NCBI GenBank assembly: GCA_016929985.1
Contig: JAFGIH010000347.1
Location: 1 to 9,694 of the forward strand
Origin: Thermoleophilia bacterium
Lineage (GTDB): Bacteria > Actinomycetota > Thermoleophilia > RBG-16-64-13
Direction of reading: 5' to 3'
Length of the DNA stretch: 9,694 nt
The position numbers and the translations under genes were made by a program. Below are positions 1 to 9,694 of this stretch, in pieces. Each line of letters starts with the position of its first letter. Position 1 is the stretch's first letter. A model generated the notes under the pieces. The model did not search any database. It saw only the letters and a list, made by a program, of their open reading frames with translations, and had not been told where the DNA came from.

Positions 1-861
1 CCGCGACTCCGGCAGGCCCCTGATGACCGTCTGCGGTGTGACCGGAGTCTGGTCGGCGACGGAGTGGATGTTGGTGGTCGCCCCGCCCACCTCCACCACC
101 AGGAGACTGCCGATGCCCGGCTCGCCCTCGGCTCCGTCAGCCAGCAGGGCGGCCGCCTGCAAGGTGGCCTTGGGCGTGGGGATGATGGGCCCGCCGACGA
201 AGTCGGCGGCCTTGTCGAGGCCTTTGGCGTGAGTGATATGGGCTATGAAGATCTCCCTTATGAGCGCCTGCGCGGGCTCTACCTTCACTGTGTCGAGGGT
301 GGGCAGCACGTTGGTGGCCCTGTAGACCTTCTTGCCCGCCCTCTCGAGCATCTCCCGAACAGTGTCGGCGACCACCCGGTTGCCGGCCACCAGGATGGGG
401 CACTCCACTCCCGAATGGGCCAGCACATGGGCATTGTGCGTGATCACCCGCTTGTCGCCGCCGTCGGTGCCGCCGCACAGCAGGATGATGTCGCACCGGG
501 CCGCCTCGATCTCGCGGACGACCTCCTTGTCGATCTCGAAACCGTACGAGCAGACGACCTTGGCGCCGGCGCCCAGACAGGCCCTGCGGGCAGCCTCCAG
601 GGTCAGTTCGGGCACCAGCCCGATGGCCGCCATCTTCAGGCCGCCGGCCGCACTGCTGCTCGCATATTTGCCCTCGACGTCCGTCAGATCCAGCCCGCAC
701 GAGTCGACGAGCTCCGCCAGCGCGTTGTTCAGGCCGATGGTGACATCGGTGTCGATGGTGGTCGGTGACTGGGCTCTGCCCAGGATGACCTCCTTGGAGA
801 GATCGACGGCCAGGATCTTGGTCCAGGTGCTCCCGAAGTCGATCAGTAGATAGACACTCAC
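1..861 (-). CDS. glmL: MutL/GlmL-family mutase accessory ATPase-like protein (partial, C-terminus outside window)
   Basis: The reading frame is open from a GTG at 861 to the left edge, giving 287 residues; family members have roughly 460, so the C-terminal third is missing. The N-terminus has the ASKHA-type phosphate-1 motif LIDFGSTWTK (residues about 6-15). A CGGTDGGDK stretch follows mid-protein, and a phosphate-2-like EVGGATTNIHSV lies at about 257-268. The family accompanies adenosylcobalamin glutamate mutase in the glmS-glmL-glmE loci of clostridia and is thought to serve as a chaperone or reactivating factor; direct proof is limited. GTG 861 is chosen because an in-frame stop lies just upstream (877-879) and GAAGG sits six bases before it. 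The gene starts 32 bases after the sigma-like subunit, so it is probably cotranscribed. In the phosphate-2 motif, two positions that I recall as usually Asp are Glu and Asn. Confidence 0.88.
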   Translation of the reverse strand, partial: MSVYLLIDFGSTWTKILAVDLSKEVILGRAQSPTTIDTDVTIGLNNALAELVDSCGLDLTDVEGKYASSSAAGGLKMAAIGLVPELTLEAARRACLGAGAKVVCSYGFEIDKEVVREIEAARCDIILLCGGTDGGDKRVITHNAHVLAHSGVECPILVAGNRVVADTVREMLERAGKKVYRATNVLPTLDTVKVEPAQALIREIFIAHITHAKGLDKAADFVGGPIIPTPKATLQAAALLADGAEGEPGIGSLLVVEVGGATTNIHSVADQTPVTPQTVIRGLPESR

Positions 862-893: not shown

Positions 894-1328
894 TCAGTCG
901 ATGCCGAGGTCGGTCTTCAGAGCCTGTACGGCCTCGGCCGCGGTACAGGTATTGGGGAAGGCTCGATCGAAGCCCATCTCCCTGAAGCGCCGCTCGATCT
1001 CGGGCCAGTTCTTCTCCAGCTCGATGGGCGCCGCCACCGTGCCGCCCACGTAGAGGATGATGTCGTCGAGGCCGGCTTCGATGCACTTGTCGCGGAGGCC
1101 CTCACAGTCCAAGACGCCCATTCCGTACATCGACGAGACAAGGATGGCGTCGGCATCGATCTCGATGGCGGCGTTGATGAACTCCTGCTGGGGGACGACC
1201 GCGCCCAAGAAGGCGACGGTGAAACCGGCCTCCTTGAAGGCCTTCTCGAGCACCCAACCGCCGATCATGTGGGCATCGGCGCCGATAGTGCCTATGACCA
1301 CGGCTTTGTTGACGTGTCTCCTCTTCAC
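894..1328 (-). CDS. glmS: B12-binding subunit of a glutamate-mutase-type enzyme (sigma/S component)
   Basis: A 144-residue cobalamin-binding protein. Its Rossmann-like B12 domain shows GADAHMIGG near the N-terminus. This is the DxHxxG motif, whose His20 would replace dimethylbenzimidazole as the lower cobalt ligand (base-off/His-on binding). Further on are VSSMYGMG (the SxL-region equivalent) and YVGGT (the GG motif). The second half closely follows clostridial glutamate mutase sigma (FINAAIE, DCEGLRDKC, NWPEIERRF, MGFDR), and the length matches the usual 137 or so. The GTG start overlaps the stop of the epsilon-like gene (TGA 1325-1327), with AGGAGG about eight bases upstream, so translational coupling is likely and would help hold subunit stoichiometry. 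The symbol here means glutamate mutase S, not glucosamine-phosphate synthase. The partner's altered pocket means the holoenzyme may not act on glutamate. Confidence 0.93.
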   Translation of the reverse strand: MKRRHVNKAVVIGTIGADAHMIGGWVLEKAFKEAGFTVAFLGAVVPQQEFINAAIEIDADAILVSSMYGMGVLDCEGLRDKCIEAGLDDIILYVGGTVAAPIELEKNWPEIERRFREMGFDRAFPNTCTAAEAVQALKTDLGID

Positions 1329-2800
1329 CTGTTCTCCTCCTGTCCGGCCTGCCGCTTCGGCAGTATCGAGGCGAACTGCAGGTCATGCACCACCATGTCG
1401 AAGCTGAGCTCGCGCCCCTCCTTCTTCGCTCTGCCCGCCAGCTTCTCCCGGTGGTAGACCAAGACTTCCTTCGGCAGAGGGATGTCGCCGGGGTCGAAGT
1501 AACGCACGGCGTTCTCGGCATCGCGCATGACCATGACCTTGCCCTTGTTGTACTTCCAGGGGGTCAGCATGGTGTCCACCCAGCCGGCTTCGACCCCCTT
1601 GCACATGCCCACGGCCATGTCGCCGCCGCCCGCCTCCAGGCACTTCTCCATGAGAGTCCTGACTTCCAGCTCGATCATGGCCTCTTCCAGGCGCGACTCC
1701 TCCGATTCGGGCATCTTCTGGGTGCCCATCAGCGTGAGCAGATGCCTGGCCAGGCGGACCGAGCTGGCCATGCCCTCTTTGGTGGGGGTGGCGAAGGCCT
1801 CATCCTCGCTCTTGAGGATGGCGGTGGTGAAGTCTCCCAGTATCGCGATGGTGGCGTTCCAGGCGATCATGGCGCTGGACTCCTCCACTCGGGGCGGCCA
1901 GGCTCCCAGGAAGGGATAGCCTCCGGTGAAGAACTTGACGTCGTAGCCGAAGCGCCGCGTGTACTCCTGGCACAGCCGTCTGGTCACCCTGACCATGGCG
2001 ATGTCCTGGATGAGGTTCATGTTCAGGCCGTTCTCCAGGAACTGGTACCTGATGCCCTGCTCGGCGCCCAACAGCGACTGTGAGACGACCACGAACGACC
2101 GATATCCGGGGCTGTCGTAGCCGCTGAGGTTGCAGGCGTTGTGCGTGCAGATCGGCACGCCGTTCTCGGTGTAGATCGCCGCCAGCCGGCTCTCGTACTG
2201 GTTGATGCGGATCTCTTCTTCCAGGGGGATGTCTTTGCAGTGGGCTATGCACTCCTGCAGCGACCTGGTGTTGGCTCCGTTCCATCCCGCGGCAAGGGCG
2301 ATCTCGGAGGCCAGGCGCCCGTCTTCGTCGGTGGAGTTGAGGGTCAGGGGCACCTGCGATGCCCTGCGGATCTTGCGGGCCTCTTCCACGCCGAAGTTGA
2401 CGATGGGCCAGCCGTTCAACATCGACATGCCCTCTTGCCTGCTCCTTTCGATGCCGGCCGCGGCCCTCTCGAAGTCGAGCTTGCGTGTGTACGAATCGGA
2501 GAAGATGATCCAGACGCCGTCGGGAGCCAGACCCTCCGCCTCCACATACTGCAAACCCTCGATGGTGTACTCGGTGAGGGCCCGGCCGAACTGGGGCATG
2601 AGCAGGTGGATGCCGCGCTCTTCGGCCTCCTTGTGCTTGAGCGCGTGGCTCTTGCCCTGAGACAGCTCCTTAGCGGCGGCTATGCACTCGTCCAGATCCT
2701 CGATGTCCTTCCCCGTCTCCCACTGGGGAAGCACCTCTTCTTTCCGGATGCGGAAGAACTCCTCGTCCGACAGCCGCTGGTTCCTGATCTTCTGGCTCAT
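1325..2800 (-). CDS. glmE: Glutamate-mutase epsilon-like catalytic subunit with altered substrate pocket
   Basis: A 491-residue TIM-barrel subunit of a class I adenosylcobalamin carbon-skeleton mutase; clostridial GlmE has 483. Family signatures run the full length: DEEFFRIRKEEVLPQW at the N-terminus, SYTRK (about 103-107), LNGWPIVNFGVE, AAEQG-like GAEQG, NLIQDIA, ATPTKE (about 337-342), and a conserved C-terminal WKYNKGKVM...VRYF region. Aligned from memory to Clostridium cochlearium GlmE, the adenosyl-contacting Lys326 and Glu330 are kept (Lys330, Glu334), as is Arg100 (Arg106). Arg66 and Arg149 of the substrate 'arginine claw' become Gln70 and Asn155; Glu171, Tyr177 and Tyr181 become Asn177, Glu183 and His187. 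I infer an active AdoCbl mutase with a different substrate. The ATG at 2800 is preferred over a TTG at 2824 because GGAGGAGA lies seven bases upstream. It is the first gene of the minus-strand operon; the order E-S-L differs from the clostridial S-L-E. Confidence 0.9.
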   Translation of the reverse strand: MSQKIRNQRLSDEEFFRIRKEEVLPQWETGKDIEDLDECIAAAKELSQGKSHALKHKEAEERGIHLLMPQFGRALTEYTIEGLQYVEAEGLAPDGVWIIFSDSYTRKLDFERAAAGIERSRQEGMSMLNGWPIVNFGVEEARKIRRASQVPLTLNSTDEDGRLASEIALAAGWNGANTRSLQECIAHCKDIPLEEEIRINQYESRLAAIYTENGVPICTHNACNLSGYDSPGYRSFVVVSQSLLGAEQGIRYQFLENGLNMNLIQDIAMVRVTRRLCQEYTRRFGYDVKFFTGGYPFLGAWPPRVEESSAMIAWNATIAILGDFTTAILKSEDEAFATPTKEGMASSVRLARHLLTLMGTQKMPESEESRLEEAMIELEVRTLMEKCLEAGGGDMAVGMCKGVEAGWVDTMLTPWKYNKGKVMVMRDAENAVRYFDPGDIPLPKEVLVYHREKLAGRAKKEGRELSFDMVVHDLQFASILPKRQAGQEENR

Positions 2801-2942: not shown

Positions 2943-3596
2943 GTGGAGCGGAACATCGTCTACTTCGAGAAACCGGGACGTGCGAACACGGAGGAGACCC
3001 TCCGTCTGGTGGCACAGGAGGCCGAAAGGCGCGGGATAACCAAGGTCGTTCTTGCCTCGACTACGGGCGATACCGCACGCGCCGCCGCGGCGCTCTTCGC
3101 GGGCACGCAGGTCAAGCTGGTGGTGGTACCGCACCAGTACGGCTTCACCGAGAACCAGCGCTTCCCGGCCAAACTCGTCGCTGAACTGGAGCAGCAGGGG
3201 CACCGGGTGCACTTCGGCACCATGCTGTTCCACACCGACGGCTTCTACGGGGTGGGGTCTCCCGAGGCGATGGCCATGGCGCTGCGCACCATCTGCCAGG
3301 GCATGAAGGTCTGCGTGGAGATCGTGCTCATGGCTGCCGATGCCGGGCTGGTCGCGCAGGGCGAAGAGGTCATCGCGGTCTCGGGCACCCGCCGCGGGGC
3401 CGACACCGCCGTGGTGGCCCTTGCTTCCACCTCCACCGCCCTACACGACCTGCATGTCACCGAGATCATCTGCAAGCCGCTCCAGACCAGATCGTGGGCG
3501 CGCGGCACCAGTCCCTACGACGTGCACGGCGAGAGAGGGGGGCGGCCGCAGGTCTCGCAAGGCGGGAGCGACGACCAGAAAGGAGTCGGACGGTGA
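2943..3596 (+). CDS. Stand-alone pyruvate kinase C-terminal (alpha/beta) domain protein
   Basis: A 217-residue protein resembling only the C-terminal regulatory domain of pyruvate kinase, without the catalytic barrel. It matches the orphan family typified by Archaeoglobus AF0103: YFEKPGRANTEETLRL at the N-terminus, LASTTGDTA (about 38-46), KVCVEIVLMAADAG (about 121-134), VSGTRRGADTAVV (about 145-157) and EIICKP (about 173-178). In pyruvate kinase this fold carries the effector site; the orphan family has no established function known to me. The last 30 or so residues (Gly/Arg/Ser-rich) extend past the domain and look disordered. The GTG start is the first after an in-frame stop at 2937-2939. 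The stop overlaps the next start (GTGA at 3593-3596), implying coupling to the MmgE/PrpD gene. A small-molecule-binding or sensing role is only an inference. Confidence 0.85.
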   Translation: MERNIVYFEKPGRANTEETLRLVAQEAERRGITKVVLASTTGDTARAAAALFAGTQVKLVVVPHQYGFTENQRFPAKLVAELEQQGHRVHFGTMLFHTDGFYGVGSPEAMAMALRTICQGMKVCVEIVLMAADAGLVAQGEEVIAVSGTRRGADTAVVALASTSTALHDLHVTEIICKPLQTRSWARGTSPYDVHGERGGRPQVSQGGSDDQKGVGR

Positions 3597-4960
3597 CCAC
3601 AGAGCAAGAGATCGCGCGATTCGTCTGTCACACCACCTACGGTGACATTCCCGCCGCTGCTCTCGGGACGGTGCGAGATGTGGTGCTCGGCGTTCTGGGC
3701 ACGACCATCGCCGGGGCGAGGGCCGAAGGCTGCGAGACGGTGGTCGCAATGGCCCGGGAGTTGGGCGGGAGGCCCGAAGCATCCATCCTGGTCCATGGAG
3801 ACAGGGTGCCGGCCCAGCAGGCTGCCTTCGCCAACGCGGTCATGGCGCGCGCCCTCGACTTCGAAGACTCCATGGCGCCCGGCGCGCACGCGGGAGCGGC
3901 CGTGGTTTCGGCCGCGCTGGCCGCGGCGGAGCTCGCCGGCGGAGCGAGCGGTGCGGACTTTCTCGCGGCGGTGGCGGTGGGCCTCGAGCTCGCCGTGCGG
4001 CTGAACCTGGGAGAGGCGGAGTACGACGGTTTCGATCCCACGGGGGTATGCGTGCCCTTCGGGTCGACCGCGGCCGCCGCCAAGATCCTGGGCCTCTCCG
4101 AGGATGAGACTCTGAACGCCCTGGCCCTCGCGTTCTGCCGTTGCGGCGGCAGCTTCCAGGCGAACGTCGACGGCGCGCTGGCTGTGAGGATGATCCAGGG
4201 TTGGGTGGTCGAGACCGGCGTCACCTGCGCCAGGCTGGCCGCCCGTGGCATCACAGGTCCGCGCAACTTCCTCGACGGGGTGTACGGCTACTTTCATCTC
4301 TTCGGCCGCGACCGGGTGGGGGCCGGCACGGTGCTCCCGGGCCTGGGCAGCCAGTGGCACGTGGACACGTTGGTCTTCAAGAAGTATCCGAGTTGCGGAG
4401 GCACACAGTCGAGCACCGAGCTCATCCTCGACCTCATTCGCGAGGAGAACCTGGAAGCCGACGATGTGGAGCGCATCGAGATCCGCATCGTCCCCTACCT
4501 CCACCGGCTGGTGGGCCACCCCTTCGAACTCGGCAGCAATCCCAAGGTGAACGCCCAGTTCAGCGTGCGCTGGTGCGTGGCCAACGCGCTGGTCCGCAAG
4601 GCCTCGACGCTCGCTCACTTCGAGATCGACGCCGTCGGCGACCCGGACGTGCTCAGGCTGGTGGAGAGGATAGAAGTCGTTTCGGATGCCGCTCTTGACG
4701 CGCGCAGCCACAGCGCCGCGGACCTGTGCGTGGTGACCAAGGACGGCGGGGAACACCTCAAGAAGATGGACGTAGCCCCGGGATTCCCGGGCAACCCACT
4801 CTCCAAAGCGGAGCACGTGCAACGGTTCTGGGATTGCCTCGCGTTCGGGGGCGACCCGGGGTTCGACGTGAAGAGGGGGGAGCAGATCATCCACATGGTG
4901 GATCACTTGGAGGAGAGGGGAGACGTCCGAGACCTGATAGCGTTGCTCCTGCCGGCGTGA
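3593..4960 (+). CDS. MmgE/PrpD family protein (2-methylcitrate dehydratase / cis-aconitate decarboxylase-like)
   Basis: A 455-residue member of the MmgE/PrpD superfamily, which includes 2-methylcitrate dehydratase, cis-aconitate decarboxylase and iminodisuccinate epimerase; 450 or so is usual. The all-helical N-terminal domain opens with EIARFVCHTTYGDIP and contains ALDFEDSMAPGAHAGAAV (about 87-104), the region of the family's LDFDDTH...HPG signature. FGSTAAAAKILGL follows at about 156-168. FKKYPSCGGTQ (about 262-272) is the KxYPxC active-site segment. Two usual His positions are changed: there is no His after the EDS triad, and the site normally TH after the Cys is TQ. His99 and Lys263 remain. 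The substrate is probably a di- or tricarboxylate but cannot be named. The GTG start overlaps the previous stop, with AAAGGAG eight bases upstream. The longer frame beginning at 3494 lies inside the previous gene and is not used. Confidence 0.9.
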   Translation: MTTEQEIARFVCHTTYGDIPAAALGTVRDVVLGVLGTTIAGARAEGCETVVAMARELGGRPEASILVHGDRVPAQQAAFANAVMARALDFEDSMAPGAHAGAAVVSAALAAAELAGGASGADFLAAVAVGLELAVRLNLGEAEYDGFDPTGVCVPFGSTAAAAKILGLSEDETLNALALAFCRCGGSFQANVDGALAVRMIQGWVVETGVTCARLAARGITGPRNFLDGVYGYFHLFGRDRVGAGTVLPGLGSQWHVDTLVFKKYPSCGGTQSSTELILDLIREENLEADDVERIEIRIVPYLHRLVGHPFELGSNPKVNAQFSVRWCVANALVRKASTLAHFEIDAVGDPDVLRLVERIEVVSDAALDARSHSAADLCVVTKDGGEHLKKMDVAPGFPGNPLSKAEHVQRFWDCLAFGGDPGFDVKRGEQIIHMVDHLEERGDVRDLIALLLPA

Positions 4961-5009: not shown

Positions 5010-5819
5010 GTGATAGACCTGGATACGATGCACCAAGACGCCGAGGAGCTGGAGAAGTATCTGCGGCTGCAGACCTACCCGCTTGCGATACGGCTTCTGC
5101 GGTCGGAATCCGAGATCCCGGTGGACGCGCGACGCCCCAAGAGAGACGAGGGCTGTCAGTACAACGTGTGCCAGGCCTTCGCGCTCTCGCGGAGGAACGG
5201 TTGCACGATGGCCATGCTGAAAGAAGACATGTACTGCTTCGAGCCGGTGGTCGGCTACGGCATGGGAGAGCCGCCGCAGGAGTTCCTCGACGGCCAGAAC
5301 CGCTACCCCGGCGACGTGGCGACCCAGGAGGCGGGGCGACGGTACGCCGAGCAGTTCCCGCGCCTCGAGACCGGCAAGTACATCGGTATCTTGTCGGCTC
5401 CTCTGGCGCAGGCCTCCTTCGAGCCCGACGCCGTTATGATCTACTGCAATCCGGCGCAGTTGGTGGTCCTGCTGATGGCTGGGGAGTACAAGACGGGAGA
5501 GAACCTCCCGACCGCGCTGTCCGGGCATGCGGCCTGCGTATACGGGCTGGTGCCCGCCTTCTGCGAGGGCAAGTACCAGGTGGCCGTGCCATGCAGGGGC
5601 GACCACATCACGGCCATGGCCGGCGATGACGAGATGATCTTCACCATACCGATGACGAAGTTCGACGAGTTCATGTTCGGCATGAGGACTGTCGTCGGCG
5701 GTGAGGGGAAGCTGACGCGGCTGCCCATGATCCACGAGATGAAGCCAGCCGCCGTCCAGCCCGAGAGCTACTTCAGGATGGCGGAACTCATGGGCATGGA
5801 TATCAGACGGCCCGACTAG
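5010..5819 (+). CDS. DUF169 family protein, cysteine-rich
   Basis: A 269-residue protein of the DUF169 (COG2043) family, recognised from the LRLQTYPLAIRLL opening, the GCQYNVCQAFALSRR segment (about 48-62), GRRYAEQFPRLE, and the later LSAPLAQASFEPDAVMIY and PCRGDHITAMAGDDEM regions. No enzymatic activity is established for the family as far as I know. Eight cysteines are present (49, 54, 65, 76, 146, 176, 185, 195). This is many for a cytosolic protein of this size and suggests a metal or iron-sulfur site or redox role; that is inference. There is no signal peptide or membrane segment. The GTG start has AAAGG and GGGAG upstream; an internal ATG at 5028 is an alternative. It follows the MmgE/PrpD gene by 49 bases on the same strand and is probably the last gene of that unit, because a new promoter candidate follows. 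Confidence 0.85.
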   Translation: MIDLDTMHQDAEELEKYLRLQTYPLAIRLLRSESEIPVDARRPKRDEGCQYNVCQAFALSRRNGCTMAMLKEDMYCFEPVVGYGMGEPPQEFLDGQNRYPGDVATQEAGRRYAEQFPRLETGKYIGILSAPLAQASFEPDAVMIYCNPAQLVVLLMAGEYKTGENLPTALSGHAACVYGLVPAFCEGKYQVAVPCRGDHITAMAGDDEMIFTIPMTKFDEFMFGMRTVVGGEGKLTRLPMIHEMKPAAVQPESYFRMAELMGMDIRRPD

Positions 5820-6229: not shown

Positions 6230-7420
6230 ATGAGAAAATTGGTTCTACTCGCTGCATGCTTGGCAATGATCGCCGCTTTGTTCGTGTTCGGCTGCGGCGA
6301 TGACGAGACCACAACCACAGCGGCTCCGGCTACCACGGCGGCACCGGCTACTACTGCAGGACCGGCAACGACTGCGGGGCCGGCAACGACCGCGGCTCCG
6401 GAGACGACCACCACGGGCGCGCCGGTCGAAGCGACCGTCATAAAGCTCAGCTTCGCCTCTGAGAAGCCGCCCACACACGTCGATCACACCGCCAACTTCC
6501 CCGGCTTCTTCGAGCTGGTGGAGCAGGCTACCAACGGCAAGTACAAGTTCGAGATCGAGTGGTTCCCGGTCAACACCATCCTTGCGCCGCCGGACATCTA
6601 TGACGGCGTGAAGACCGGTGTCGTCGACTGCGGCCAGTCCAGCATGGGCTATACGCCTCGCCAGTTCCCTGTCATGCAGACCATGATGCAGCCGGGCATC
6701 TCGCCGCCGAAGAACACCGCCGCTATGGTCGCTGCCGGTAACGAGCTGTACGCGAAGTATCAGCCCAAGGAATTCGCCGACACCCACGTTCTCTTCATCT
6801 ACGCCTGCGGCCCCGGATGGCTGCATGCCGACTTCCCGCTCGAGACCGCCGCCCAGCTGAAAGGACTCAGGATCAGGTGCTCCGGCACCTCGACCAGAGC
6901 CATCGAGCTGGTGGGCGCAGACCCGATAGCCATGCCCATGGCGGACGTCTACGAGGCGGCGCAGAAGGGCACCATCGACGCCCTGGTCTCGCCGGCCGAG
7001 ACGCTGGAAGGCTGGAAACACAACGAGCTCTTCGACTATTCCACACTGCTCAACCAGATTTACGCCTCCGACTTCTTCTGGGTGGCCATGAATCTGGACA
7101 AGTGGAACTCGCTGCCTGACGATCTCAAGGCGGCGTTCGACGCGGTCCAGGCAGAGGGCGCGGCTCGAGCCGGCGCTATCTGGGACTATGCGCACGAACA
7201 CGCCATAGAGATATCGGAGCCGCTTGGGCACAAGACCGCCGAGCTTCCCGAGGCCGAGAAGGCCAAGGTAACCGAGATGATCAAGCCCATCCGCGACGAG
7301 TATGTGGCTTATCTGAACGAGAGTGGTCTGCCCGGCGAGGATATCGTGGCCGACTGCATGTCGATGATGGAGAAGGCTAACGCGGCTGAATACGAGTCGT
7401 GGGAGCCACCAGCTCAATAG
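6230..7420 (+). CDS. dctP: TRAP transporter substrate-binding lipoprotein DctP
   Basis: A 396-residue extracytoplasmic solute receptor that captures an organic acid and hands it to the DctQM permease. The N-terminus is a lipoprotein signal: MRK, a hydrophobic core, then VFGC with Cys22 as the lipidation site, so it should be membrane-anchored. Residues 23-66 are a Thr/Ala/Pro-rich tether containing four near-identical six-residue units. The DctP domain then starts at about VIKLSFASEKPPTHVDHT. Family landmarks are CGPGWLH (193-199) and LKGLRIRC (210-217), whose Arg216 corresponds to the conserved arginine that salt-bridges the substrate carboxylate in characterised TRAP receptors. MPMADVYEAAQKGTIDA and the later WKHNELF region also match. 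Without signal and tether the length is normal. The ligand cannot be read from the sequence. TAAGGAG is eleven bases upstream of the ATG. It is the first gene of the operon; a 92-base gap with a strong hairpin separates it from dctQ. Confidence 0.95.
   Translation: MRKLVLLAACLAMIAALFVFGCGDDETTTTAAPATTAAPATTAGPATTAGPATTAAPETTTTGAPVEATVIKLSFASEKPPTHVDHTANFPGFFELVEQATNGKYKFEIEWFPVNTILAPPDIYDGVKTGVVDCGQSSMGYTPRQFPVMQTMMQPGISPPKNTAAMVAAGNELYAKYQPKEFADTHVLFIYACGPGWLHADFPLETAAQLKGLRIRCSGTSTRAIELVGADPIAMPMADVYEAAQKGTIDALVSPAETLEGWKHNELFDYSTLLNQIYASDFFWVAMNLDKWNSLPDDLKAAFDAVQAEGAARAGAIWDYAHEHAIEISEPLGHKTAELPEAEKAKVTEMIKPIRDEYVAYLNESGLPGEDIVADCMSMMEKANAAEYESWEPPAQ
6326..6397 (+). repeat. Four 18-bp tandem units coding the PATTA(A/G) tether
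   Basis: Codons 33-56 of dctP encode PATTAA, PATTAG, PATTAG, PATTAA in succession, followed by a degenerate PETTTT. The units differ at wobble positions, so the repetition is kept at protein level more than at DNA level. It forms a flexible, probably surface-exposed spacer between lipid anchor and receptor. Confidence 0.85.
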
Positions 7421-7433
7421 ATGCTGTAGCAGT

Positions 7434-7466
7434 CCTTGGCGCCCCGGGTCACCCGGGGCGCCAAGG
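7434..7466 (+). other. Perfect 15-bp intercistronic hairpin between dctP and dctQ
   Basis: CCTTGGCGCCCCGGG (7434-7448) is followed by loop TCA and its exact reverse complement (7452-7466). The stem is very GC-rich. It starts 13 bases after the dctP stop. No T-run follows, so it is not a standard rho-independent terminator. Hairpins after a binding-protein gene (as between malE and malF) are known to protect the upstream message from 3' decay and lower expression of the permease genes, which fits the need for more receptor than permease. That role here is inferred. Confidence 0.8.
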
Positions 7467-7512
7467 GACCATTCGTCCGCCGGCGCGACTCGAAAGGTGA
7501 GGTCGCCTTCAC

Positions 7513-7998
7513 ATGGGCAAACTAGAACGTGTTTTCGGAGCATTCACGAAGTACGGCGACTATCTCGCCCGTCTCGGTATGGTCGCTCTGCTGGTGCTTG
7601 TCGTCGCCAACGTGATCTTGCGTTATGCCTTCAAGTCTATTCAGGGCGCCTACGACTATGTGGGTCTCATCACCGCGGTGTCTGTGACTCTTGCCGTCGC
7701 CTACACCGCCTACGAGCGAGGCCACATAGAGATAGAGATCCTGATGGAACACTTTCCTGAGCGCTTCCAGTCGCTCGTTGGCAGCATCATGATGCTGATC
7801 AGCACGGTGTTCTTCTGCATCGCCTCCTGGCAGTGCGTGGTAGTCGGCATCTCGATGAAAGAGGCCAATGAGACGACCATGGCAGTCTACGTTCAGCTTT
7901 ATCCCTTCATGTACATCCTGGCTTTCGGGCTGGCATTGACGGCCCTGGCAACACTCATCCACACCACAAAGTACGCAGTCAAGGCGGCGAGACCATGA
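7513..7998 (+). CDS. dctQ: TRAP transporter small permease DctQ
   Basis: A 161-residue integral membrane protein, the normal size for the four-helix small subunit of TRAP importers. Hydrophobic segments lie at about 18-38, 47-67, 87-108 and 125-148. The family's NVxxRY motif is present as NVILRYAF (33-40), and the conserved GH(I/V)xxE segment as RGHIEIEIL (69-77). It forms a complex with DctM and supports docking of DctP. The ATG has GAGG ten bases upstream. Its TGA overlaps the dctM ATG (ATGA at 7995-7998), so the two permease subunits are translationally coupled. Confidence 0.93.
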   Translation: MGKLERVFGAFTKYGDYLARLGMVALLVLVVANVILRYAFKSIQGAYDYVGLITAVSVTLAVAYTAYERGHIEIEILMEHFPERFQSLVGSIMMLISTVFFCIASWQCVVVGISMKEANETTMAVYVQLYPFMYILAFGLALTALATLIHTTKYAVKAARP

Positions 7999-9293
7999 AC
8001 CCAACGACCATAGCCGTCATCGGTATCGTCGTGCTGGTAGTCATCTTCCTGCTGCGCATGCCCGTGGCCTACGCCATGGGGGTGGTGGGCTTCGTAGGAT
8101 TCATCGTGGCGTCGTCGTGGAGTGGGGCGCTCAGGATCGTCGCGAAAGACCTATGGGCGACTTTCTCGTCGTACTCGCTCTCCGTCGCCCCGATGTTCGT
8201 TCTTATGGGCACCATTGCCTTCTACTCGGGCATCAGCGGCCGCCTTTTCGACGCCGCCAACAAGTGGTTGGGCCGGCTACCCGGCGGTCTGTCGCTTGCC
8301 ACCATCGCCGCGTGCGCAGGCTTCGGCGCCATGTGCGGCTCGACGACGGCTGCCGCGGCGGCCATGGGCAAGGTCACCCTGCCCGAGATGAAGCGTTACG
8401 GATACGATGATGCCCTGAGGACCGGCTGCATAGCATCCGCCGGCAGCCTGGCCATCATGATCCCTCCCAGCACGGTGCTGATCATCTACGGGGTGATGAC
8501 CGAGCAGTCCATCGGCAAGCTGTTCATCGCCGGCATCTTGCCCGGCCTTCTTCTGGCCGTGGCGTTCATGGCCGTCGTTCTGCTGCTTGTCTGGCGTAAC
8601 CCCGGCCTCGCTCCTCCGGGGGTGAAGACCAGCTGGAAGGAGAAGTTCTTCGGGCTGTCCGGCATCATCGAGATGCTACTGCTGTTCGCCCTGGTCATGG
8701 GCGGTCTCTTCGTCGGATGGTTCACTCCCACGGAGGCCGGCGCCGTCGGCGCCTTTGGCGCCATAATCATCGCGCTGGCGCGAAGAAAGCTGACCCTGAA
8801 CGCCTTCTGGCAGTCGCTCAAAGAGACGACGCGCATCACGGCCATGGTCTTTCTGATCATCGCGTGCGCCACCATCTTCGGCCACTTCATGGCCATAACC
8901 AGGGCGCCGTTCGCGCTGTCCGAGTTTGTGGGCGGGTTGCCGCTTCCTTCCATCGTCATCATGATGCTCGTCATGTGCATCTACCTCATCGGTGGTTGCT
9001 TCATGGACTCGCTGGCTCTGGTCACCCTGACCATTCCGATCCTCTATCCCATCGTCACGAAACTGGGCTATGACCCCATCTGGTTTGGCGTCTTGATCAT
9101 CCTTGCCGCCGAGATGGGCGTGATCACTCCTCCGGTAGGGGTGAACGTCTACGTGATCAAGGGTGTCGCTCCAGATGTTCCCATGCACACCATATTCCGA
9201 GGCATCTGGCCATTCCTCGGCGCGGAGGTCATCTGCACGGTGATCATCCTGTTCGTTCCGCAAATAGCTCTGTTCTTGCCGAATCTGACCTAA
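7995..9293 (+). CDS. dctM: TRAP transporter large permease DctM
   Basis: A 432-residue, strongly hydrophobic protein with many transmembrane segments, the usual size for the sodium-coupled translocating subunit (ion transporter superfamily). Conserved blocks are present in order: MFVLMGTIAFYSGI (67-80), GSTTAAAAAMGKVTLPEM (115-132), SLAIMIPPSTVLIIYG (151-166) with TEQSIGKLFIAG (169-180), GWFTPTEAGAVGAFGAI (241-257), and the C-terminal half repeat GGCFMDSLALVTLTIPI (333-349) and GVITPPVGVNVYVIKG (375-390). The start is inside the end of dctQ. With DctP and DctQ it completes a secondary importer that moves a carboxylate into the cell. The next gene follows after 51 bases on the same strand. Confidence 0.95.
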   Translation: MNPTTIAVIGIVVLVVIFLLRMPVAYAMGVVGFVGFIVASSWSGALRIVAKDLWATFSSYSLSVAPMFVLMGTIAFYSGISGRLFDAANKWLGRLPGGLSLATIAACAGFGAMCGSTTAAAAAMGKVTLPEMKRYGYDDALRTGCIASAGSLAIMIPPSTVLIIYGVMTEQSIGKLFIAGILPGLLLAVAFMAVVLLLVWRNPGLAPPGVKTSWKEKFFGLSGIIEMLLLFALVMGGLFVGWFTPTEAGAVGAFGAIIIALARRKLTLNAFWQSLKETTRITAMVFLIIACATIFGHFMAITRAPFALSEFVGGLPLPSIVIMMLVMCIYLIGGCFMDSLALVTLTIPILYPIVTKLGYDPIWFGVLIILAAEMGVITPPVGVNVYVIKGVAPDVPMHTIFRGIWPFLGAEVICTVIILFVPQIALFLPNLT

Positions 9294-9344
9294 TGACCAT
9301 CAGCAGCCTCCCAGACAAGTGGAGGTAGTGGCAAGGGGTTGACC

Positions 9345-9694
9345 ATGACAGGCGACGCGAAGTCGGGTGCCCGTCGGCACGCCGCCGCTCTGCAGGTCCT
9401 CGGCTCGAGTACCACCGGGGTGGCAGGGGAGGCTGACGGGACTATGACCGGCATGGGCGTGGACAAGCAGGTGATCAGAGGCAGCGGTCTCATCGGCCCC
9501 AGAGACTCGGGCGCTCCGACGCTCGTGGACGTGGCAGAGGGCAGGATCGTCCGTATCCGGCCGTTGCACTACGAGATGAGCTACGACAAGAAGGGCTTCA
9601 ACGCCTGGAAGATGGAGGCTCGGGGCAAAACGCTGGAGCCACCCCTGAAAGCGTGCGTCGGTCCTCTCGGCCTGGCCTACAAGAAACGCGTCTA
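9345..9694 (+). CDS. Molybdopterin oxidoreductase, transhydroxylase-like, N-terminal part (runs off right edge)
   Basis: An open frame of 116 codons from ATG 9345 to the window end. From about residue 39 it reads VIRGSGLIGPRDSGAP, then LVDVAEGRIVRIRPLHY, WKMEARGKTLEPP and AYKKRV. This matches the start of DMSO-reductase-superfamily catalytic subunits related to pyrogallol-phloroglucinol transhydroxylase, whose N-terminus has WKIEARGKTFTPP at the same place. As in that enzyme, the usual N-terminal CxxCxxxC iron-sulfur site is absent; the only Cys in view is in KACVGPL. The catalytic residues and molybdenum ligand are outside the window, so reaction and substrate are unknown. AAGGGG six bases upstream supports ATG 9345. 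In-frame ATGs at 9444 (with GGGGAGG eleven bases upstream) and 9453 are alternatives that would drop a low-complexity Ala/Gly-rich leader of 33-36 residues containing an RR pair. It is likely cotranscribed with the TRAP genes. Confidence 0.82.
   Translation, partial: MTGDAKSGARRHAAALQVLGSSTTGVAGEADGTMTGMGVDKQVIRGSGLIGPRDSGAPTLVDVAEGRIVRIRPLHYEMSYDKKGFNAWKMEARGKTLEPPLKACVGPLGLAYKKRV

Follow-up and report, generated by a model that had tools for sequence, protein, structure and literature searches.

A clade of glutamate mutase homologues with an exchanged substrate pocket: a putative adenosylcobalamin-dependent mutase for free acids and its MmgE/PrpD partner

What does a glutamate mutase homologue act on when most of the residues that hold glutamate have been replaced? 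The question is raised by a 9,694-nucleotide stretch of DNA from a Thermoleophilia bacterium (GenBank assembly GCA_016929985.1, contig JAFGIH010000347.1), which is referred to here as the window. Its minus strand carries a gene for a variant of GlmE, the epsilon subunit of glutamate mutase (1325..2800; 491 amino acids; PF06368 at 335.1 bits against a gathering cut-off of 26.6), followed by a gene for a GlmS-like B12-binding sigma subunit (894..1328). Glutamate mutase, an adenosylcobalamin (AdoCbl) enzyme, is a model for the way in which a substrate cage controls radicals, and to our knowledge only a few AdoCbl carbon-skeleton mutases have been described. The data presented below strongly indicate that the window enzyme has a substrate other than L-glutamate. 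With a probability of about 55%, it is a free-acid AdoCbl mutase that interconverts X-CH2-CH2-COO- and X-CH(CH3)-COO- and is served by an epimerase of the MmgE/PrpD family.

Are the pocket residues truly replaced, or are they conserved but shifted in the alignment? The window epsilon subunit is 36% identical to GlmE of Clostridium cochlearium (alignment to the solved structure 1cb7_B, E 1.3e-85), and no gap falls close to the pocket sites. R66 becomes Q70, R149 becomes N155, H150 becomes S156, E171 becomes N177, G173 becomes R179, Y177 becomes E183, and Y181 becomes H187; R100 (R106), K326 (K330), and E330 (E334) are retained. The original prediction, made from this DNA by eye, had named the exchanges at R66, R149, E171, Y177, and Y181 and the retention of R100, K326, and E330, and the alignment to GlmE bears it out on each of these sites, with the arginines lost and not displaced. 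Misalignment is ruled out by this alignment, the fold match, and the family alignment taken together. The exchanged positions (Q70, N155, S156, D158-E159, N177, R179, E183, and H187) and the kept R106 are encoded at 2240..2593 of the minus strand, as computed by hand from the ATG. The same prediction called the B12 subunit nearly canonical, and this also holds: the sigma subunit scores 164.9 bits with TIGR01501, above the cut-off of 135.8, and its DxHxxG motif reads DAHMIG. The epsilon subunit, by contrast, scores 330.3 bits with TIGR01503, the equivalog model for glutamate mutase, below the cut-off of 390.1.

The substitutions are not a peculiarity of one sequence. An alignment of 191 PF06368 sequences contains 149 variants, 36 canonical GlmE, two remote actinomycete sequences, and four other paralogues; dropping copies at 99.5% identity leaves 139 variant rows and the same outcome. 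Among these 139, arginine never occurs at position 66 (Q in 130, M in six, H in three) or at position 149 (N in 116, V in 23), glutamate never at 171 (N in 83, S in 43, others in 12, one gap), and tyrosine never at 177 (E in 129, T in six, G in three, one gap). Position 181 is histidine and T152-P153 is replaced by D-E in every row. R100 is likewise retained in all 139, K326 and E330 in all 137 ungapped rows, and 110 rows have gained the arginine R179. Two loci each hold two adjacent copies of the variant epsilon gene (L010:9947-15214 and L017:7071-10054; here and below, L and G numbers denote loci and genomes); the L017 copies combine V149 with G177 in one and with E177 in the other.

Could the loss simply reflect distance from GlmE? 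All 36 canonical rows keep R66, R100, R149, T152-P153, E171, Y177, Y181, K326, and E330, in a set that is biased in that 28 of them are the best Pfam scores of one Bacillota sample with weaker matches left out. Three of those weaker matches (L125, L126, and L127) look odd in the pocket. The two remote actinomycete sequences provide a better control: at 26-28% identity to GlmE, both keep R66, R100, R149, H150, E171, Y177, Y181, K326, and E330, whereas the variants, at 30-40% identity, do not. Thus, low identity alone does not account for the loss.

On a tree of 65 rows, built by a quick method without bootstrap, all 39 variants group together in a single clade (SH-aLRT 100, stem 1.38), with long branches flagged, including that of L155 beside the clade. 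The phylogeny and the 139-row signature agree on a separate clade with common substitutions, a point that the original prediction had proposed to check. The AlphaFold2 model of the window epsilon subunit, a predicted TIM barrel that would form the catalytic part of the mutase, has a mean pLDDT of 90.1 and superposes on 6h9e_B with a TM score of 0.93 and a root-mean-square deviation of 1.5 Å. The dN/dS of its gene is 0.058 against L001 and 0.072 against L002, which rules out a degenerate gene. The proposal of a live radical mutase working on something other than glutamate thus gains support from the clade signature, from purifying selection relative to two relatives, and from an intact predicted fold, as well as from the kept AdoCbl-side residues, the B12 subunit, and the neighbouring genes described below. 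The long-branch neighbour L155 (8236-10233) has G66, G149, D177, and H181, and lies near genes for a CoA-transferase III, an acyl-CoA dehydrogenase, and a CoA-ligase-like ATP-grasp protein. Other pocket combinations are found in the PF06368 paralogues L122, L123, L125, L126, and L127, and there may be more than one activity in the family that is still unexplored.

What do the lost residues do in glutamate mutase? According to the accessible part of one study, R66, R149, and E171 bind the glycyl moiety, which is the migrating group, and R100 and Y177 bind the acrylate half (PMC10947579). The variant clade has swapped the entire glycyl-binding set and kept R100, which argues that its migrating group is not glycyl.

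The neighbouring genes also set the variant apart. When 28 variant loci (the window and 27 others) are set beside 20 canonical ones, each 13.5-17.5 kb long, methylaspartate ammonia-lyase adjoins all 20 canonical genes (one member was checked: PF07476/PF05034) and none of the 28 variants. It scores over the cut-off in only three of ten variant genomes, exactly those that additionally hold a canonical GlmE (G001, G002, and G007). A gene of the MmgE/PrpD family is found near the mutase, at a distance of up to about 3.1 kb, in 22 of the 28 variants, and the canonical loci have none (Fisher p 1.6e-8, with non-independent rows); its order and strand relative to the mutase vary among loci. A control with short windows, nearly all of about 4.3 kb, finds MmgE/PrpD in three of 12 variant and none of 47 canonical windows. 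At least 13 contigs, apparently the same ones and including that of the window, occur among both the 120 mutase matches and the 120 MmgE/PrpD matches listed. The MmgE/PrpD gene, which did not figure in the original prediction, is the strongest context for a substrate other than L-glutamate. Cobalamin adenosyltransferase genes from two Pfam families occur in nine variant loci (six of them Pfam-checked) and lend indirect support to an AdoCbl-dependent rearrangement. The remaining neighbours of the variants change from locus to locus and include TRAP, TctC, DASS, and SSF transporters, IclR regulators, UbiD, AMP ligases, and thiolases.

In the window, the MmgE/PrpD gene (3593..4960, plus strand; PF03972/PF19305) is divergent from the mutase genes and starts with GTG preceded by AAAGGAG. 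Characterised members of the family act on 1,4-dicarboxylates, which are coordinated by five conserved residues, and use a catalytic histidine; iminodisuccinate (IDS) epimerase and methylsuccinate isomerase rely on an additional tyrosine as well, and 2-methylcitrate dehydratase belongs to the same family (PMC12290011, in the part accessible). The window protein shares the fold, the catalytic histidine, Lys266, and the additional tyrosine with the isomerase and the epimerase and differs from them in three of the five carboxylate-coordinating residues, its pocket reading R86, D89, H99, Y144, D148, V198-R199, and K263. It is not alone in this. In 20 of the 22 partners, the window's among them, H88 is replaced by R and H152 by D, and the same 20 have lost K202 (V in 17, G in three). 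The catalytic histidine and K266 are retained in all 22 and the additional tyrosine in 20; the reference tyrosine drifts out of its column in some alignments, and the assignment in the partners also rests on the four-residue spacing to position 152 that PMC12290011 gives. The predicted fold of the window protein matches cis-aconitate decarboxylases and IDS epimerase with TM scores of 0.82-0.88.

Do the two pockets change together? A second non-canonical group of GlmE homologues, clade B (L121, L124, L153, L154, L156, and L158), provides the comparison. Its members keep R66, R100, and R149 and carry the changes E171 to P and Y177 to W. An MmgE/PrpD gene is found in five of the six loci, and here it is of the dicarboxylate type (two complete sequences with H,D,H,H,K,K and three cut ones with H,K,K). 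Thus, where the mutase keeps both glycyl-side arginines, the partner keeps its carboxylate-coordinating set, which indicates that the pockets of mutase and partner change together. The clade B mutase possibly acts on an amine-free dicarboxylate. The L121 cluster (1-18000) also encodes hydantoinase/oxoprolinase A and B, an aldehyde ferredoxin oxidoreductase, an SDR protein, and a Peripla_BP_6-type ABC transporter, and several of its genes recur in other clade B loci (e.g., L154:1326-9869 and L158:8160-13918).

The rebuilt MmgE/PrpD protein was also sought in its own right in 345 genomes from the phylum of Geobacter argillaceus, and ten loci were read: seven were the best new matches, and three were weaker. 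All seven best loci have the rebuilt residue set, and the three weaker have another set. In L201 the partner is a GlmE variant with a confirmed variant pocket. In L200, L202, L205, and L206, the mutase beside the rebuilt MmgE/PrpD is instead of the PF01642 family and comes with a small B12 subunit and a CoA ligase; L120 (genome G005) combines the rebuilt protein with PF01642, MeaB, and a B12 subunit, with no ligase in the 12 kb read. No PF01642-like open reading frame occurs in the 28 variant loci. One reading of this pattern is that the free-acid mutase would be replaced, around the same epimerase, by a CoA-type mutase, accompanied by a CoA ligase in four of five cases. Residues around R207 and H244 depart in various ways from methylmalonyl-CoA mutase in L120:824-5318, L200:8126-14261, L202:719-5808, L205:8122-15144, and L206:6712-12629, and these PF01642 mutases are candidates for further new CoA-type mutases. 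The AMP ligases near two of them match generic acyl-CoA ligases and give no pointer to a substrate.

A UrdA-like flavin enzyme lies between MmgE/PrpD and mutase in L018 and L201 and after MmgE/PrpD in L008. In L008 and L018 it keeps Arg411, His520, and Arg560 (carboxylate and proton-donor residues), has Tyr373, the urocanate reductase state, where fumarate reductase has histidine, and does not clearly keep Asp388, which binds imidazole (residue roles from PMC7921117, as far as accessible). On these residues, it could interconvert X-acrylate and X-CH2-CH2-COO- rather than act on fumarate.

How might the parts work together? Together, the epsilon and sigma subunits would be a carbon-skeleton mutase that depends on AdoCbl and acts on free acids, and in which the acrylate-half arginine (R106, equivalent to R100) and the adenosyl side (K330 and E334) are retained and the glycyl-binding set is exchanged. 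It would interconvert X-CH2-CH2-COO- and X-CH(CH3)-COO-, where X would have neither the alpha-amine nor the alpha-carboxylate that glutamate has. The MmgE/PrpD partner would epimerise the X-CH(CH3)-COO- centre, GlmL and cobalamin adenosyltransferase would maintain the cofactor, and TRAP or other carboxylate transporters would import the acid. The enzyme activity, the reaction type and its direction, and the role of the partner as an epimerase are what we infer from the substitutions, the clade, the neighbours, and the matching changes in both enzymes.

The proposed logic has precedents. Methylmalonyl-CoA epimerase serves methylmalonyl-CoA mutase, so that an epimerase and a B12 mutase meet at an alpha-methyl acid centre; the variant system would do likewise, with a free acid in place of the thioester, another epimerase family, and another mutase lineage. 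2-Hydroxyisobutyryl-CoA and isobutyryl-CoA mutases act on CoA esters and belong to a lineage other than that of the variant, and it is their relatives (PF01642, small B12 subunit, MeaB) that adjoin the same rebuilt MmgE/PrpD in the five loci mentioned. 2-Methyleneglutarate mutase is a free-acid AdoCbl carbon-skeleton mutase with an amine-free substrate, built as a single polypeptide with a fused B12 domain, whereas the window has separate, GlmE-like genes for E and S. The closest known system is GlmES of C. cochlearium (1cb7/1ccw/1i9c/6h9e), with which the variant shares the fold, the E plus S design, GlmL, R100, K326, E330, and DxHxxG (the motif is found in 23 of 24 sigma subunits of the compared loci, one of the 24 being canonical; in the remaining one, that of L003, the reading began at an internal start). 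It differs in the replacement of R66, R149, H150, E171, Y177, and Y181, in missing the TIGR01503 cut-off, and in having MmgE/PrpD in 22 of 28 loci and no adjoining methylaspartate ammonia-lyase. The window protein should not be named glutamate mutase, though it probably works like one.

A number of observations weigh against the pairing of a free-acid mutase with an MmgE/PrpD epimerase. MmgE/PrpD is absent from the stretch in six of the 28 variant loci (L005, L006, L007, L012, L014, and L022). The genomes of L006, L007, L014, and L012 (G001, G002, G004, and G009) hold only distant homologues of at most 34% identity, which makes the partner dispensable. The MmgE/PrpD of L013 and L016 is of another subfamily. 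The comparison of neighbours sets variant loci of uneven length (3.3-21.5 kb) against canonical loci from one phylum sample (Bacillota). The link between MmgE/PrpD and mutase is also not exclusive: in L203 and L204 the 18 kb read contains the rebuilt MmgE/PrpD but no B12 mutase, and L207 has another MmgE/PrpD type and yet a PF01642-like mutase nearby. The pockets of the CoA-type mutases are unlike, with Y89 and R207 kept in L206 and L120 and not in L200, L202, and L205, so their substrates may differ. The flavin enzyme, present in only two of 28 variant loci and in L201, is weak evidence. Within the variant pocket, Y177, an acrylate contact, is gone together with the glycyl set (E in 129 of 139), and a displaced second anion is possible given R179. 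Likewise, R86 and mostly R199 have been gained in the MmgE/PrpD partners and may bind a second anion in another geometry. The residue names in these partners were transferred on the basis of their spacing and of alignments with IDS epimerase and ACOD1 rather than with the Pseudomonas aeruginosa sequence, and the accessible part of PMC12290011 does not state which residue holds which carboxylate.

Should the new arginines be taken at face value, the enzyme would be a new mutase for a dicarboxylate of another shape, whose displaced second carboxylate or anion would be bound by R179 in the mutase and by R86/R199 in the MmgE/PrpD protein. This is unlikely, though it deserves to be kept in mind: the arginines are widespread, and dicarboxylate-type transporters (TRAP, DASS/CitMHS, and TctC) occur in some variant loci, but R179 is missing in 29 of 139 rows (one a gap), including the L019/L021 group, acidic residues have been gained in the same pockets (D158, E159, and E183 in the mutase, D148 in MmgE/PrpD), and the flavin enzyme of L008 and L018 carries the tyrosine of urocanate reductase rather than the histidine of fumarate reductase. 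The reciprocal distribution of methylaspartate ammonia-lyase and MmgE/PrpD, and the presence of 2-methylcitrate dehydratase in the latter family, could alternatively mean that MmgE/PrpD replaces the ammonia-lyase as a dehydratase or lyase acting on the branched product, for example in a route from 2-hydroxyglutarate through 3-methylmalate to mesaconate. We consider this rather improbable, because the additional tyrosine of the epimerases is retained in 20 of 22 partners and because 2-hydroxyglutarate has both carboxylates, so that the loss of R66 together with R149 would be unexpected. As substrates, 2-hydroxyglutarate and 2-oxoglutarate are disfavoured on the same ground, both glycyl-side arginines being gone.

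A different reaction altogether, of an eliminase or aminomutase-like kind, on the same scaffold is very improbable. The pocket is so altered that the reaction class is unreadable from it alone, and a fold search shows that other AdoCbl enzymes distantly share the epsilon fold; the two-subunit GlmE/GlmS design and the kept R100, K326, and E330 nevertheless point to a skeleton rearrangement, as do those other clusters in which the same MmgE/PrpD type has a CoA-type carbon-skeleton mutase for a neighbour. It can hardly be maintained that the variant has remained a glutamate mutase whose pocket has changed and yet still works. It has the same fold and accessory genes, and many JGI entries for it carry the name methylaspartate mutase epsilon subunit. 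Against this stand the loss of R66, R149, E171, Y177, and Y181 throughout the 139 rows (one gap each at 171 and 177) when sequences at 26-28% identity keep them, the missing ammonia-lyase (below the cut-off in seven of ten genomes), and the three genomes that hold a canonical GlmE besides. For a free-acid mutase, the identity of X was weighed from the neighbouring genes: an iron-containing alcohol dehydrogenase and a 3-hydroxyisobutyrate-dehydrogenase-like protein in L002, an Fdc1-like UbiD in L012 (with the same cluster in L016 and L017), an aryl-type AMP ligase in L012, and the UrdA-like flavin enzyme. Succinate semialdehyde, levulinate, 4-aminobutyrate/3-aminoisobutyrate, 4-hydroxybutyrate/3-hydroxyisobutyrate, arylpropanoates, and imidazole propionate were considered as sources of X; each is suggested by few loci only, and none is claimed.

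The other genes of the window complete the picture. The epsilon gene starts with an ATG at 2800, with GGAGGAG upstream as ribosome-binding site, and ends with the stop at 1325, sharing four bases with the sigma gene. A GlmL/MutL-type accessory protein (1..861, minus strand; PF13941 at 349.9 bits), cut by the window end, passes the TIGR01319 cut-off and misses that of NF040745, for which its incompleteness has to be allowed. A plus-strand gene at 2943..3596 overlaps the start codon of MmgE/PrpD, and its product has a pyruvate-kinase C-terminal-like (PK_C) domain (PF02887 at 31.2 bits against 28); no open reading frame similar to it was found in the other 28 loci compared. A DUF169 protein follows (5010..5819, plus strand; PF02596 at 160.4 bits), with relatives in L001, L002, and L206. 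The three TRAP genes on the same strand, dctP (6230-7420; PF03480), dctQ (7513-7998; PF04290), and dctM (7995-9293; PF06808), together span 6230..9293, and the transporter probably imports a carboxylate. At the end of the window (9339..9692, plus strand; PF21423 at 39.4 bits) lies the start of a pyrogallol-hydroxytransferase-like (AhtL) molybdopterin enzyme. A second AhtL-like enzyme is encoded in L002 at 18618-20503, and a link to phenolic compounds is possible.

How widespread is the variant? It occurs rarely, yet across a broad range of bacteria: when GTDB representatives were scanned with two patterns, 28 loci emerged, of which L028 is canonical, leaving 27. The hosts include Actinomycetota, Sporomusa, Sporobacter termitidis, Clostridiales, Syntrophaceae, Geobacter, Burkholderiales, and Alphaproteobacteria, among others. 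The nearest named relative of the window among the loci found, L001, is an Actinomycetota metagenome-assembled genome with 94% identity over the epsilon subunit. In taxon samples, each centred on a genome picked because the variant is present there, it occurs in five of 199 genomes from the class of G005, two of 141 from the order of Geobacter argillaceus (with no other match in that sample), two of 12 from the family of Sporomusa silvacetica, and one of 337 from the class of G010. Searches of the open-licence PMC literature listed no paper on the variant clade.

What would follow for the family? On balance, we lean towards a previously unrecognised free-acid AdoCbl mutase with a new migrating group that works with an MmgE/PrpD epimerase of a new type; the pathway, so far undescribed, would be spread over several phyla, and in related clusters a CoA ligase and a CoA-type B12 mutase would do the same on a thioester. 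In databases, the label methylaspartate mutase would now conceal such a pathway. Given the matching changes in MmgE/PrpD, the search for the substrate would narrow to X-CH2-CH2-COOH and X-CH(CH3)-COOH acids. An enzyme in which the half that holds the migrating group has been exchanged and the acrylate arginine kept would provide a natural test of the residues that set the migrating group.

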